A DNA stretch of 64,000 nt. Source: Gautieria morchelliformis (taxonomy: Eukaryota > Basidiomycota > Agaricomycetes > Gomphales > Gomphaceae). A program made the translations under genes and the position numbers. Positions within the stretch are counted from its first letter, which is position 1. Every line of letters starts with the position of its first letter. Below, in pieces: positions 54,153-61,738 of the stretch. The notes below the pieces were generated by a model. It had not been told where the DNA came from and did not search any database. It worked only from the letters and a program-made list of their open reading frames with translations. The DNA lies in assembly GCA_015179125.1 (NCBI GenBank), contig WHVA01000163.1, positions 149,813 to 213,812 of the forward strand, in the 5' to 3' direction.

Positions 54153-54708
54153 GCACGCGGTAAGATTAATAAAGTCAAAAGCAAGTCAAGTCGTGCTCCG
54201 CCAGCCAGAACGCTCCGGCCACGTGTTCCCAAGAGCGAGGCGAAGAAACGGCGGGAGCGAGAATGGGGGTTAGCGCACCGAGTAGCGACGCGCGACTGAA
54301 GAATAGGTAGATAGATGCCCATCCATGTGTACCATGTTAAATGCTAATCTACTTCCGAATGTGAGGCTGAACACCCTCGCGAGTCTGGCACCAGAAGCCT
54401 GGGTGATGTACGACGTGAAGACCAAACGCTCCCCGGCCTTGAAGGAGAGATCGAGATAGGAAAATTGAATTGGACGGTGTCAGAATACATGACGGTTTGG
54501 TTTGTCGACACGACTGGCAATCGAACAGCCTGAGGGCATCATGGGTGCATATGGTGTGGGTCTAGTCTATAGACCGAGGTGCATAGACATTTTCCGGATA
54601 GCTCGGAAGTCCTGGGGTGGAGTCCAATCGACGGCGTCGCCAGAGCGAAGCAAAGAGGGAAAGCACTTGGCAGTGATTTTAGAGGATTAGTAATTGCGCT
54701 GATATCTG

Positions 54709-54780
54709 GGCTGCGAAGCTCGAACAAGATTCTTGGTCAGCCGCGGATCACGCCGCAGCACTGGGTGACCCCATCGTCCG
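54709..54780. repeat. Left terminal inverted repeat of the MULE
   Basis: Matches the complement of about 61665-61738, with GAAGCTCGAACAAGATTCTT at the core and a few mismatches. Confidence 0.8.
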
Positions 54781-54824
54781 GAGCTGAGCGCCCCCCGCTC
54801 TAAGTATGCCTCTTCAAAGCCATT

Positions 54825-55371
54825 CTTTAATGCTCCATTTAGGCCTCTATTCAAGTAAGGGTCATTTTATCAACTGACTGATATACATACCATCCAGCGC
54901 TATGGTGTTTCACCGCTGCCATTTAGCCTCTATTCAGGTAAGCCGCGTTAATTTTTCAACTGACTGAACTGACTGATATACATACCATCCAGCGCGATTG
55001 TGTTTCATCGCTGCCATTTAGGCCTCTATTCAGGTAAAGGTCAAATTTTCAACTGACTGAACTGACTGTATACATGCCATCCAGCGCGATTGTGTTTCAT
55101 CGCTGCCATTTAGGCCTCTATTCACGTAAGGTCAAATTTTCAACTGACTGAATTTCATCACGGCCATTTAGGCCTCCATTTAGGTAAGGGTCAAATTTTC
55201 TGATAGCTTCGGGTTTTCGTGCTAGCTCTAGACTGATATACATACCATCTAGCGTGAGTGTGTTTCACCACTACCATTTAGGCCTCTATTCAGGTAAGGA
55301 TCATTTCTCAATTGACTGATTTTTCTAGATATACCATCCAGCCTGACCGCGCTTCATTGCTTCCAGATCCA
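54825..55371 (+). repeat. Tandem repeats (about six units of 60-110 bp) at the MULE left end
   Basis: Each unit has TTTAGGCCTCTATTCAGGTA, CAACTGACTGA and CATACCATCCAGCG. Every CAGGTAAG looks like a splice donor. The array runs up to the transposase start. Confidence 0.85.
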
Positions 55372-58300
55372 ATGGACCGCTCAAGCATGTCTCCCTCCTC
55401 TAATCTCAGCTCGTCATTGCTCAGCAAGACCGCATTTCCTGTCATAACTGTGAGTATTCTCACAATTGCCGTCTTGTATGAATCTCATTGCGAGTAGCGA
55501 AGCAATATCCCTGCAGTACCGACAAAGCCACTTTTGCAGGGTAGTGGTGAAATTAAAGTAAGTAATGCACTGTATTCATCTACGTATAGTATGCTCACAA
55601 AATCATAAGGTCAATACTCGCATGCTGCATCTCGATGCAGACCAGCTCACAAGCATTGACGATTATTACCATGCGAGTTCACACTATCATCGACTCTTTT
55701 CAGAGGGAGCAGACTCGCAAATTGACACAATCGGTCTTTTAAGAGATCAAGGGCTGGATGTGCGGGACCTAGGAGATCTGGGGAATGGCTGGAGTAAACG
55801 GTGGAGTACATTCAGTGGGTCGGGCTCGAAAAAATACAGCCGTGTCTTGGTTTAGTGGTGGGATAGATCCTTTTTTGTGTAAGAAGTTTTCTAAGGTAAT
55901 ACTTTTGCAATAAAAGCCAGTGTGGCTCAAGTACAAATGCTCGCAAAGCTAAAGATGATCAACAACGAGAGGCAAAGGGCTTGAAACCTCAAGGAAAAGA
56001 CTGGAAGCGCAAGGCCCCCTATGATTTTACAGGCTGTCTCGCACATATTGACCTAACGTTCCGGGAAGACACTTTCAACATCTTGCGCATAACAGGTGTA
56101 ATAACACATAATGAGGCCTGTCTCAAGCAGAATATGCAGCGGCTTCCCGCAGTCCCATTGCACGAGCATGTCTGGCAAGTTGCACTTCAGCAATTGAATG
56201 ATGGTGCAAGGTGAGTTTTGAAAATTGGTACTACTGTATCGTAGCAAAATATATCAACATTGACTTGAACTGCAGCATTGCAGCAATCCAGAGTCGCAAT
56301 GATGAATTACTTCGTGCAGGGTTATATAACGGACAGTCAGCGTACAATCCCCAGAAAGCCAATATTCGCTACAAAATCCTGCCATCCGATGCTTGCCGAC
56401 TTTACGGCAAATATTCCCAGATGCATGGTATTGATACAACAAAACAGCCGCAAGACAATGTTGATGCTTGGTTGGACCCTGAAGCGCAAGAATACAAGCC
56501 AGAACTTGCAGCGGCCATCTTCTATTATCAGGCAAGAGTCAGTAAAGAGGACCATCTACGCATCTGTATCCAGACTGCGGACATGAAAAAGGCTGCATGG
56601 AAGTACACACATCACAAGCAGTTGGTTCTCGATGGAACCTTCGGAATATGCGATAGTCAGATTCTACTCTTTATTGCTCTAGGTGTTGATGACACAGGCA
56701 AAGGTGTTCCACTGGCCTTCTTTCTTTTCTCCGCTCCAACAGGCAACAAAGCGACTCATGCTGGTTATGACACGTCTATACTTCACGAGCTTCTCAAAAT
56801 GTGGCGTGATTCTCTCGGTATGCAAAATGGAACCCCGTTCAAACCTTGGGTCACCATTATGGACCCAGATACAAAGGAACGGGGTGCCTTGGTTCTCGTA
56901 TGGCCAGATATAACACTGCTCCTATGCAAATTCCATATCCGCCAGTGCTGGACAAACCGACGGAAGAAGGAGATTTGTCTGGGTCAGATAAGAAACTTTC
57001 CGAAACAACAGGTGCAGGCAAGACTGCAAGCATTAGAGGAACAGTACGTCGGATTCATTTAGATATAATGAGCTTAATTAATTACAGTAACGGCAGACTT
57101 CTGCTCTCGGTGGACTATTGTGCAGCGCAAGAACTTATGGCACAAGAACGGTTGACATTAACCAACCTTAAGACACTACCAGAAATGATAGTAGCTGCAA
57201 ACTCTGGGCTGAAATATCTCGACTATCTTACTGAAACATGGATGCCTGTATCCCTCTGGCATGGATGGTCTCAAAAAGGTCGGCTTGATGCTTCAGTGAT
57301 CCTCCACATCCCCATTGAAGGTGTGATACCGACAACTAATCACCTGGAAGCCTTCAATGGTGTCCTTAAAAGGAAACACATTCACCGCTGGCAGCATGCA
57401 GGCAAACATCTTCGGTTTGACCTGCTCGTCTATCTCCTGGTCACTCAGATATTACCTGGAATATTTAACAACCGGAAATCGCAGGAAAACTACTACCTAT
57501 GGCTCTCAGAGCGTTTTCGCAGCCAAGCTGGTGGTCTTGACCTGGTTGAAGCCCGCAAAGGAATAGCTCTAGAAGCGGTGACTATTATACCAGTAGCATG
57601 GTGGTTCACTGAGACAGAGGCAGCCCACAGAGAGGAGGCTGATTACATTATATCACATGGCCGCTTGACAGATGTGCGCTGGGTTGACACATACACACTT
57701 TCAGCACAGTGTGCAAGCAGCACAGCTGATATTCGAGCCATTGGACACAAGCACTATACTGTTCGGCTCTGTGTGTATGGGTGGGGATGCTGTGCATGTC
57801 CCTATTTCAACTCAAATAAGGGAGCCTGCAAGCATCTCTGGGCATTGAGGATAGGAAGTTCAAGTCTCATCAATGCTAAGAAGCTGTCCCCCTCATTATA
57901 TTTATTCCAGTTTCCCATGACAGAAGTTGAGGCACGAGAGATCTACAATTCTTGCTTCCCAATAACCTCTACCCCTGCAATCCCGAAGGCGACTACCATA
58001 GCAATTCCTAATGCAGGCTCGAACATACAAATGCTGTCAGTGAATCAAACGGAGCTGTCTCAGGTGAGTCGAGATGCATATTTACCTGTCACTCATTTGA
58101 CAAATTCCACAGCCTCGTATAACCTCCCATCTCTCGGACCAAGCAAACACGTGGCTTCTCAGCACTGTTGAGGATACTGACTTGGAAATTGGCTGTCCCG
58201 ACGAATATGACTCTGAATTAGATGAGGACTCGGAAGTGATAACAGAGGGTCCTACCGTGCGTTAGCACATACATTGTGAACTGACTTGACAGTTGATACG

Positions 58301-58641
58301 TACCACAGACGAACTACAACGCGGAAGGTGTCCAGCAACAGCTACATGATAAAATTTGTCATTTGGCCCAAACAGTGCTACCACAACTTCATGGCCTCGT
58401 CAATCTGTTAAATGATATGCCTCATCAGCAATTCGAAACGTTGCGTCACAATGATAACATCACCGAAATTCAAGAAGTCTCCACAAAGCTGCAGGAAGTC
58501 CTAAGTCAAGTTACTGGTTCTTACATCGCACCCGGAGGGCAACTCCAGGTGGTCACCCAGTCTTCAGTAAGCATAAACTTTAGTTCAGCAGAGTCTATTA
58601 ACGTTGAATTACTTGCAAGAAACCTTCTAGCACACGGCTAG
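55372..58641 (+). CDS. MULE transposase, eight exons, apparently intact
   Basis: Exons: 55372-55449, 55498-55557, 55610-55849, 55921-56210, 56276-57043, 57088-58063, 58113-58256, 58309-58641. Total 2889 nt, in phase, 962 aa, no internal stop. An N-terminal region with CGSSTNARKAKDD and YDFTGCLAHIDLTF precedes the MULE domain: LVLDGTFGI (first Asp), IMDPDTKERGALVLVWPD (second Asp), LLCKFHIRQCW, and NHLEAFNGVLKRKH (Glu). A SWIM zinc finger follows (CCACPYFNSNKGACKHLWAL), then a Gln-rich tail. DDE transposases of this class cut and paste the element by its TIRs. The first exons are the least certain: the ATG at 55372 was taken, but an upstream ATG at 55312 exists. With intact TIRs and TSD it may be active. 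Confidence 0.88.
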
Positions 58642-58779
58642 CTAAAGTAACATCAAGCGGACATACCAAACGGTTACTACCACCATCCCCTGAGCAGCGG
58701 CAGCGACGAAAAACATCGCATAGCGACCGTTGAATTTTGAGCAGGCTGGTTAAATCCTAGTCAGTGCAGTCGGCAGCCA

Positions 58780-59160
58780 AACATACAGCAGTAGTCAAGA
58801 GGTTTTGGCTCAGGTAGTATCTTTGGCAATCCTAGTCAGCGACGGAGCAGTCAGCAGCCTAACACGCAGCAGCCTTCAACAGGATTTGGTGCAGGAAGTA
58901 GCGTTGTAGCACCTTTTGCAACCTGGTCTGCAGCAGAACCAACAGCAGCCGTCAACAGGGTTTGGTACGGGAGGTAGCATCTTCGGAAGCCCTGGAGGTC
59001 AGCAGCAGCAGCAGCGATCAGACAGGGTGGTGGCTTGTGAGGTGGTACCATGGCTCCAAATGTTGGCCAGTCAACGCTTGGCCAGCCCTCCTCGTGAGTC
59101 AACACCTCCGTATCCCCAACGGTGCCACCCGCGGCCCCATCGTGGATACGGACCAGTTCG
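58780..59160 (+). other. Nucleoporin-like Gln / Gly-Phe segment
   Basis: Repeated codon blocks read QQPSTGFGAGSS, QQPSTGFGTGGSIFG and SPGGQQQQQ, like FG repeats of Nup98-type nucleoporins. It lies between the two convergent MULE genes and has frameshifts, so it looks like a captured, decayed fragment of a host gene. Confidence 0.45.
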
Positions 59161-59499
59161 GTGACCCCGCTGCGGCTGCAGGGTGACGTGGAGGACACGG
59201 ACGCATCACGGCCATGTACCATAGCTTGGACGGCATGCTGCAGCGCAAGACGCAAACCCGATATTGGGCATGATGCTCATGAGCGAGTCGAGCGATGCTC
59301 CAGACAGCACGCACCACGCGTAGATGTACCTCGTGCTCGCACGTGCGGAGGCTGCAAAATGACCGCAACGATGAGGCTCGGTCTGGATGGATAAGTTGGT
59401 TCCATCGCATGCGCGCTTACAGCATAATTCCAAGAAAATTACTATTAATTATTATGAAGCGGTAAACTACGGTAGGTGCTTTGGGGAGAGAGATTTAAT

Positions 59500-61263
59500 G
59501 ATTATGGTGCTGGGCGATCAGGAATATCTACGTAAGGCCAAAGAGGGCACTGCGGTCCATGCAAATAGTGCAGTGTCTCTTTTGTGAAGTAGAGCCCGCA
59601 GTTGCATTGATCCAATGCTTGCCAGAAGGTTTCTGATGAGAGACCAATACCGGAGCTAAGGCAGTCGAATGCTCGAGTCAATGAGTTGTCACAAAGTGCT
59701 GGAACATGTCGGTTGTAAACATAGACTTGGTTTGCTTCAGGCGGTTCCCAGAGACATGCCGTGTCTCCGACCCGCCGGTCTCCTGGCGACACATGTAGTA
59801 AGTTAACTATCCAGCGTAGCAGAGGTTGCAATGTCTCACCTGGCATAACGGTGACAGCCTCATATAGTTGTAGGTTCTGTTGTGATCTAGGCGTGGTTTG
59901 AATATCAAAAGAGTTGTCATAACAAGCTGGTGCATGATGAGTACAGAGTACAGCGGTAGAGTTGACGTATTTAACATACTAGATGTTTGTGAATCCGAGG
60001 GTGTTTGCAATTCCAATTGGTTCGAAGGCGGCATTTCTGATTTGGGTGGTGTAGGCCCAATTGTCGTTGGTGCTGTAGATGTCGTCGACGGAAGGGGAAG
60101 GTGCGGTAGGGTGGACAGCGACTCAGAGCTCGTGCATGTCACTCTGGAAGGTGAACGTGAAGTGCCCACTGAAGGAATAGGAAGCTGTGAGAGGGTTAAC
60201 TGGGAACTTGCGATACTTGAAGGAGAACATGGTTCTGGAGTGACAACAAATAGGTCGTCATTACTTGCTGGATGAAGTGTTGCATGTTTCTTAATTCCGG
60301 ACTTGGAGGCTGACGATCCTGTTACTTTTGTGACTGAAAGCAATGACCAGTAGGTTTCAAAGCACGAGATATTCCCTGGTCTGTACTTACTGCCGCCAAA
60401 CCCTCGTCGGTTATTTCTTGCAGAGCGGTATGGTGGTGGTGGTGTCACATCACCATGCATATTAGTGCTTTTACTTGTGTAACGGCGATTTTTTCCATTA
60501 GAGTTCCTTGTTAGAAGGCTGCACCGATCGAAGTTTGGAAGACCTAGTAGACATCTCAGCGACGTAAACGAGGAGGGATGAATAGACGTACCAGGACCGA
60601 GCTGATCATCTGGTCTCCTAGCATAGTGCTGCGATGGCAAGCTGGGATTCACGCAGATGAGGTCTGTCAAGCATACTGAATAAAATACATTATTAGAAGT
60701 TTGATTTGGAGGAGGCGAGTGTATTCTCACTCCACGCATTACAGCCCTGCTGTTTTTGTGCGCATCCAGCTGCTACTTTACCTTGATATGGTCCTGACTG
60801 GACAACCCAAATGTGGTAGTAGTGAGTCGTCGCCGGATTGGTCTCTTGCGTCGCACATGGGCATTGAGGGAGCTCAATATATGATTTTTCGAAAGCCTCT
60901 GGGAGTTCATAATCGGTGTATAAACGGCCGTCAGCATGAGTAGGCCTATGCGCTACTGGTAAGTACGTGATGCAAGAAACAATCATAAAATTTCAAATAT
61001 CACCAATTGAATACCTGCTCGCCGAGTCTGGTCCATGTCAACATCACTCTCGCAGTCCGGATACGTTCTCTGAAAGGGGAGAACGTTTTGAGTCGCAGCG
61101 AGACCTCCTGATCTAAAAAAACTGGTGAGGACACAGGCGAAGGACAAGAGAAGTTGAATGGAGTGCTTGGAACTCGACATGGACTCGGAGATGGGGTAGA
61201 ATTATCGGCGAATGGTAGTGAAGCCTGATACTGCGATGGCAGCGGCGGTGGGCCAGGTGGCAT
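59500..61263 (-). CDS. Second MULE gene, unknown function, multi-exon, convergent to the transposase
   Basis: ATG at 61263 (MPPGPPPLPSQYQASLPF). Exons joined by eye: DQE at about 61110 to RTYPDCESDVDMDQTRRA (61023-61077), then RPTHADGRLYTDYELPE, a Cys-rich module (QCPCATQETNPATTHYYHIW, GCAQKQQGCNAW at about 60735-60885), LICVNPSLPSQHYARRPDDQ, NRRYTSKSTNMHGDVTPPPP, a Ser/Thr/Pro-rich stretch (60275-59950) and a C-terminal block MPGETLQPLLRWIVNLLHV (59846) to GPQCPLWPYVD (about 59530). Phases hold at the first joins; the last is less sure. The Cys pattern recalls GRF-type zinc fingers, but I cannot assign it. The position mirrors mudrB of MuDR, an analogy and not evidence of homology. Confidence 0.6.
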
Positions 61264-61577
61264 GGTGCACAGAATATTGCGTTCAGCTGGTATGCAAACC
61301 AGACTTTTATACTGATTCACCCGAAGAAAAAAAATCCTTTTAGTTCAATTCAATGAATAAAAAACAATCCATACATGAATAAATGCACATTTAGAGTAAA
61401 TAAGAAAAGCGGCGGTGGGCCAGGTGGCATGGCGCACAGAATACTGCGTTCAGCTGGCAAGCCAGACTTTTTTATACTGATTCACTCGAAGAAAAAATTC
61501 CTTTTAGTTCAATTCATTGAATAGAAAAACAATTCATACACGAATAAATGCATAAATGTAGTAAATAAGAATACTCG
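61244..61577. repeat. Tandem duplication (about 167 bp, two copies) at the second gene's 5' end
   Basis: 61244-61410 and 61411-61577 are close copies (GGCGGTGGGCCAGGTGGCAT... to ...AAATAAGAA). Each includes the ATG region MPPGPPP and the upstream AT-rich sequence, so the gene has a duplicated promoter and start. Confidence 0.85.
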
Positions 61578-61659
61578 CTTGCTTTTGAAGAGTTATAAAG
61601 CCTCCACCATCGGTCGGATGTACTGGAGGCGAGGCGATGTCAGCCGAGATGGGTTAAGT

Positions 61660-61738
61660 TCGTGACCAAGCTGATGGGTCACCCGATGCTGCGGCGTAAT
61701 CCGCAGCTGACCAAGAATCTTGTTCGAGCTTCATCATC
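61660..61738. repeat. Right terminal inverted repeat of the MULE
   Basis: Complement of 54709-54780. The outermost six bases differ between ends (GATGAT against GGCTGC). Confidence 0.78.

Follow-up and report, generated by a model that had tools for sequence, protein, structure and literature searches.

Why does a Mutator-like element (MULE) in a fungal genome carry a second gene that runs towards its transposase gene? The question is raised by a locus in the basidiomycete Gautieria morchelliformis, where a 64,000-nucleotide stretch of contig WHVA01000163.1 (positions 149,813 to 213,812, here called the window) holds an element of 7030 bp with a transposase gene on the plus strand and a second gene, the helper gene, on the minus strand. 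The reason for a second gene in some Mutator elements is an old question, and the function of mudrB is called unknown in the available part of PMC6446971. We compared the element with its relatives in the genome and lean towards a two-gene MULE lineage of MuDR- and Mutyl-like build, in which the second protein would be an obligate cofactor of the transposase in cut-and-paste transposition.

Ends, target site and genes of the element

The ends of the element are defined by the following features, where TIR stands for terminal inverted repeat and C numbers, here and below, are our handles for other places in the genome.

54709..61738, plus strand: whole two-gene MULE, 7030 bp
54700..54708, no strand: left target-site duplication TGATATCTG, single copy in the empty sites L081 and L082
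61739..61747, no strand: right target-site duplication TGATATCTG, same 9-mer as on the left
54709..54771, plus strand: left TIR, arm 54715-54771, 93%; the left terminus recurs in five other copies
61676..61738, minus strand: right TIR, arm 61676-61732
54732..54746, plus strand: TIR motif CTTGGTCAGCYGCGG, common to families, 42 genome matches and 0 for the reversed control
61701..61715, minus strand: TIR motif at the right end, from the genome motif search

The two inverted arms are 57 nucleotides long, match at 93% and begin six bases inside each end. The outermost six bases of the element pair poorly, and these unequal ends are repeated in other copies. The start GGCTGCG is common to the left end in the window and the five other left ends in the comparison, and the right end was also found in C162 and C538 (and in C1046, the window locus again), with a different right end in C1103. 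A query made of both flanks and one 9-mer gave unbroken matches at two places in C599 (97%) and one place in C737 (84%, 384 of 400 bases). A single TGATATCTG was present in the two places inspected, namely one of those in C599 and the one in C737. Since the flanks are unbroken around one TGATATCTG elsewhere, the window element was inserted into a repeat and its boundaries are right. Measured against the 8-11 bp expected of MULEs, the target-site duplication is 9/9 in the window, 9-10 bp in C383 and 8/9 in C162 (by eye), and there is none at the C1103 copy. The TIRs and 9-bp direct repeats reported by the first-pass annotation, which had been made from the letters alone, were thus recovered at the exact ends 54709 and 61738, and the element has moved in the past.

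Between these ends, the two genes and the modules of the helper are arranged as follows.

55372..58733, plus strand: MULE transposase gene, about nine exons, with an in-frame TAG before the third intron
Transposase exons, plus strand: 55372-55449; exons 2-3 uncertain up to 55857; 55917-56210; 56276-57043; 57088-58063; 58113-58256; 58309-58566; 58620-58733
59502..61263, minus strand: second gene (helper), 477 amino acids, seven exons, from a splice model and comparison among families
Helper exons, minus strand: 61263-61004, 60945-60731, 60675-60592, 60543-60391, 60333-59980, 59926-59840, 59782-59502
60732..60953, minus strand: cysteine-rich module of the helper (C-x-C...H...C...C-x-x-W), the stretch used as search query
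59502..59782, minus strand: C-terminal module of the helper (CLWEPP...CNC...HGP.CP.W)

The exon model of the transposase tolerated one stop and used a simple score to rank splice sites, and the end of the last exon was counted from the translation. Pfam family PF10551 (MULE) matched the open reading frame at 56202-57062 with 37.3 bits, as compared to a cut-off of 27.6, and the spliced piece with 35.4 bits. A SWIM pattern, C-x-C...C-x-H, is visible by eye, and the Pfam SWIM family scored 13.2 bits against a cut-off of 19.6, with E-values of 0.065 and 0.12, both below the cut-off score. When the window gene is spliced in the same way as its relative in C383 (read by eye), a TAG falls at the end of exon 3, just before the donor site; this codon is a sense codon in all five other aligned copies (C113a, C113b, C162, C245 and C1103). 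A weaker alternative splice, GTTTAG...GCCAG, would avoid the stop (by eye). Comparison of the N-terminal exons by tblastn gave no matches. Of the earlier description, an intact eight-exon MULE transposase with a SWIM finger, the MULE domain is upheld, whereas the model has about nine exons and the in-frame stop under the C383 splice pattern makes intactness doubtful.

The multi-exon minus-strand gene of the earlier description was likewise recovered, convergent to the transposase gene. Its six introns are all of the GT-AG type and 48-58 nucleotides long. By eye, the position of the first intron agrees in seven relatives and the positions of the second and third in C396, C1015 and C383; the third intron of the C383 helper would start with GC, and C396 and C1015 seemingly have one extra intron after the third. 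In nine aligned cysteine-rich modules from both clades of the helper family, the invariant residues include C31, C33, H44, C64, C71, W49 and W74. The C-terminal module keeps the pattern CNC...HG..CP.W, from which C337 and C187 each deviate at one residue. The two Cys/His modules, which probably bind zinc, are joined by Pro/Ser-rich linkers of variable sequence. A deep clade of helpers (C2, C189, C347, C915, C666:22102-23282 and C593) has an identity of 34-37% in the cysteine-rich module (five measured) and 43-51% in the C-terminal module, and the linkers of C2 and C189 contain a basic GGFGAGKTKRRK stretch. A likeness of the cysteine-rich module to GRF-type zinc fingers was considered and dropped, as Pfam and a profile search of PDB gave nothing.

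The gene pair across the genome and selection on the helper

Protein and family searches score the best candidates only, and the counts of matches and loci given here are therefore lower bounds. Loci were merged by position with a 5-kb rule, fragments included, and genes were considered paired within 15 kb. A DNA search with the element identified close copies on C1103, C162, C538, C245 and C1046, divergent copies on C187 and C409, and two more on C113. At the protein level, there were at least 61 matches to the cysteine-rich module, 64 to the C-terminal module, 80 to the long transposase exon, 67 to the MULE exon and 42 to PF10551, which merged into at least 71 helper and at least 79 transposase loci. 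A transposase lies within 15 kb of 43 of the 71 helper loci, and in 42 of these 43 the helper is convergent with the nearest one; the 43rd, in C666, consists of two tandem elements merged by the 5-kb rule, each of them convergent. PF10551 was the only search to detect fourteen of the 79 transposase loci, which belong to other MULE groups, and none of these 14 has a helper within 15 kb.

The C383 element (C383:18751-25057, 6307 bp) represents a diverged family, with both genes and 65% nucleotide identity to the window element over the matching part. Its ends carry a 9-10 bp direct repeat, (C)TAGTTACAG, the placement of which is open by one base. The inverted arms, 160 nucleotides long and 96% identical, extend past both ends by a few bases, and the TIRs are about 150 nucleotides long. 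In C445, a near copy of this element begins to match at the same left base. The motif CTTGGTCAGCYGCGG is present in the TIRs of both the window and the C383 element, and 22 of its 42 genomic occurrences form 11 facing pairs no more than 12 kb apart. Both genes were found in all 11 of the stretches bounded in this way. The convergent gene pair is thus a feature of several families, and the search for further copies with both genes and TIRs, which the first-pass annotation had proposed, bore out its description of a convergent gene pair.

Proportions of non-synonymous (pN) and synonymous (pS) differences were estimated from NG86 counts on codon alignments, in which the pairs share ancestry and are not independent. 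Between the window and C383, pN and pS are 0.195 and 0.90 in the cysteine-rich module and 0.27 and 0.78 in the C-terminal module of the helper, as compared to 0.215 and 0.744, and 0.296 and 0.785, in two transposase exons. Synonymous sites are near saturation at this distance (pS 0.74-0.90), and both the helper and the transposase have pN values of 0.20-0.30. In every pair with at least 15 differences, pN is lower than pS (N-terminal stretch 65/65, cysteine-rich module 472/472, C-terminal module 65/65). Ratios in the opposite direction were obtained against the window for the cysteine-rich module of C409 (1.15) and the C-terminal module of C187 (1.66), both decayed copies, and for the short N-terminal stretch of C538 (1.08, four differences); C383 and C445 differ in the cysteine-rich module by four non-synonymous and zero synonymous changes. 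These results, which follow from the substitution-rate comparison suggested earlier, show that the core of the helper is under purifying selection as strong as that on the transposase.

The two genes also co-diverge. Across loci, percent identity to the window pair is correlated between helper and transposase, with a Spearman coefficient of 0.59 (39 loci), or 0.48 with near-identical copies removed (36 loci). With the other exon, the coefficients are 0.69 (31 loci) and 0.62 (29 loci), respectively.

Several derived copies were observed. At C113:440442-453912, two copies lie tail to tail, the first without its last 127 bp; an assembly palindrome was rejected because the outer flanks are unrelated, with an identity at chance level (0.25). 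The transposase exon is partly inverted in place at C1103:120841-121371, C868:15196-15826, C222:87960-88525 and C204:65980-66596, and the copies in C868, C222 and C204, which are broken at about the same place in the exon, may be one derivative lineage. The stretch C249:340277-340666 contains only sequence from near both element ends (75-86%) and is possibly a small non-autonomous derivative. TIR motifs with neither gene within 10 kb were found at C18, C160, C215:115981, C577, C615:301205, C686 and C738; these seven places are perhaps solo ends or non-autonomous derivatives. The copy in C1046 was rejected as an independent insertion, since it is the locus of the window element again (99.88% over 5048 bp including flank), and is still counted among the 71 helper loci. 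Likewise, C445:6925-9835 was dismissed as a helper-less element, its core exon being split by about 1.3 kb.

Role of the second protein

The helper faces the transposase in dozens of copies and is kept by selection, and it is therefore probably a working partner and not a passenger. In the mechanism that we favour, which is modelled on other members of the family, the transposase very probably binds the inverted ends, where the motif common to families is located, and cuts and joins the DNA, the movement leaving the 9-bp duplications. Each gene starts near one end of the element and the two converge in the middle. The 477-amino-acid partner with its two Cys/His modules would be a nuclear protein with a part in the transposition complex or in integration, a role reported for mudrB of MuDR. 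The earlier reading of an element with a MuDR-like convergent gene pair is supported by these data; that the second protein helps transposition is, as that annotation said, an inference, and the same holds for its contact with the transposase, its action in the nucleus and the need for it in transposition.

A number of observations weigh against an obligate cofactor. No transposase was found within 15 kb of 28 of the 71 helper loci, of which four (C1046, C1103:2987, C338:253 and C457) lie at a contig start that would have removed the transposase side, and in the C597 locus a convergent transposase is located about 21.5 kb away. Conversely, 17 of the 65 transposase loci of the family lack a helper within 15 kb, several of them short fragments and one, C276, beginning at a contig end. 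The 20 unpaired TIR motifs have both genes within 10 kb in eight cases, the transposase only in three, the helper only in two and neither in seven. Stops interrupt the cysteine-rich module in three of the 34 cases read (C615, C310 and C337) and the C-terminal module in one of 14 (C1103), and the window transposase itself may carry one, as read with the C383 splice pattern. The helper matched no Pfam family up to an E-value of 10, and in PDB there was no match for the profile of the cysteine-rich module (E up to 10) or the whole helper (E up to 1), in agreement with the first-pass annotation, which had recognised no family. The structure prediction it had recommended for the cysteine-rich module was run with AlphaFold2 on the window sequence alone and gave a poor fold (pLDDT 51, pTM 0.32).

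Repeats and host-like sequence within the element are relevant for the alternatives.

54872..55152, no strand: array of three 92-bp units in tandem, upstream of the transposase gene
61241..61571, no strand: 165-bp direct duplication over the helper start and its upstream region
58753..59116, plus strand: intergenic stretch like a host FG-repeat gene at C815 (L050 2046-2806), about 82% similar

The main rival, which we consider unlikely, has the second protein as an anti-silencing factor comparable to Arabidopsis VANC, which would bind the non-coding DNA of the element, strip it of silencing marks and in this way allow expression of the transposase. The VANDAL elements of Arabidopsis, including Hiun with VANA, VANB and VANC, resemble the element described here in being MULEs with extra genes and tandem repeats in non-coding DNA. 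According to the available part of PMC5735166, the extra gene has an anti-silencing function and the targets of VANC are often tandem repeats. The array and the duplication in the window, both also present in the C113 copy, would suit such a function, and the Cys/His modules could bind DNA. However, the C383 element, the helper stretch of C1015 and the left half of the copy in C162 yielded 0 rows in Tandem Repeats Finder. The sequence of VANC is also far more variable than that of its transposase and contains the domains DUF1985/DUF287 (PMC5735166, available part), whereas here the core of the helper and the transposase are conserved to the same degree. Neither these domains, and thus no VANC domain, nor a plant mobile domain (PMD) appeared in the Pfam search of the helper, which returned 0 families. 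Pfam includes both DUF1985 and DUF287. The presence of the helper in all bounded stretches, together with a transposase-like constraint, fits moving machinery better than a fast-changing anti-silencer.

A quite improbable role is that of a regulator which sets how much transposase there is or how active it is, for example through a host ubiquitin ligase recruited via a PPPPY motif, or that of a repressor limiting copy number. PPxY motifs bind WW domains of Nedd4-type ligases, and all eight main-clade helper loci read retain PPPPY with Arg/Gly-rich residues after it, within an otherwise variable linker. The two deep-clade loci read, C2 and C189, showed no such motif, which is thus not universal, and in our judgement a repressor is not expected in every TIR-bounded copy. 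That the second gene is a passenger, captured from the host or enclosed by chance, is very improbable. MULEs capture host sequence, and a host-like stretch does lie between the two genes; the C815 gene has FG repeats (STGFG.GSIFGNPSQQQ) and a Nucleoporin_FG match below the Pfam cut-off (E 0.026), and the segment 58753-59116 looks like a captured nucleoporin-type fragment. Capture as the origin of the helper, by comparison, is not supported by the locus counts (71 helper loci, convergent in the pairs found) or the TIR-bounded stretches, nor by the purifying selection across families. No host gene that could be its source was recognised among the loci read, and the unpaired C593 helper, inspected as a possible ordinary single-copy host gene, belongs to the deep clade and has lost one module cysteine (by eye). 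The two observations that the first-pass annotation had named as fatal to its proposal, copies without the second gene and a single-copy host gene, thus did not emerge from the bounded stretches or from C593.

With the interpretation as a transposase cofactor preferred, a more specific version would have the helper found a new family of partner proteins, with two Cys/His modules, co-evolved with one fungal Mutator lineage, required in the complex and mostly linked to the ubiquitin system by PPPPY. We regard this version as a doubtful one, with little probability.

Overlapping matches suggest that the copies in C1103, C162, C538, C245 and C113 hold extra repeat units in the intergenic stretch. 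Outside the element, positions 6488-33893 of the window contain pieces of Copia-type retrotransposons (RVT_2, rve and gag) and a fragment of a PIF1-like helicase, together with DUF6570 and a weak Helitron-like match, and as judged from such matches the window is rich in mobile elements. The genome, counted piece by piece, has 26 hydrophobin matches and 91 KDZ transposase matches, which indicate a fungus and, by the usual distribution of these families, an agaricomycete.

Comparison with known Mutator systems

The window element has the features of a MULE, namely PF10551 above the cut-off, a 9-bp target-site duplication and TIRs, and the MuDR-type feature of a second gene inside the TIRs that is convergent to the transposase gene. 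In maize MuDR, mudrA, which encodes the transposase, and mudrB are convergent. MuDR likewise has two genes within Mutator ends, of which mudrB is apparently required for integration (PMC6446971, available part). The element described here differs in its fungal host and in its helper of 477 amino acids, with seven exons and two Cys/His modules, and the likeness to MuDR is one of architecture only.

Among fungi, Hop of Fusarium oxysporum is likewise a MULE with a 9-bp duplication and has 99-bp TIRs; the part of PMC5014426 available mentions a single protein, a transposase of 836 amino acids, in contrast to the two genes here. In a table of PMC6446971, the Hop subgroup, in which Basidiomycota are included, is listed with one open reading frame, Mutyl with two and another subgroup of ascomycetes with one or two. 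No description of a basidiomycete MULE with such a gene pair was found in the open-licence PMC literature, Repbase and subscription journals being outside this scope. The lineage described here, with the second gene in all 11 TIR-bounded stretches and in several diverged families, offers conserved residues for testing, and would be a tractable system should an active copy be present in a host that can be cultured.

A further parallel is Mutyl of Yarrowia lipolytica, with MudrA and MutB/MudrB, which is also a fungal two-gene MULE with 9-bp duplications (PMC5014426, available part). In the available text of PMC6446971, its second open reading frame is antisense in the table and in the same orientation in the introduction. 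Mutyl resides in an ascomycete yeast and has TIRs of 22 bp, as compared to arms of 57 nucleotides in the window and 160 nucleotides in C383. Its MudrB, at 1380 bp (PMC5014426, available part), is close in length to the 477 codons of the helper described here.

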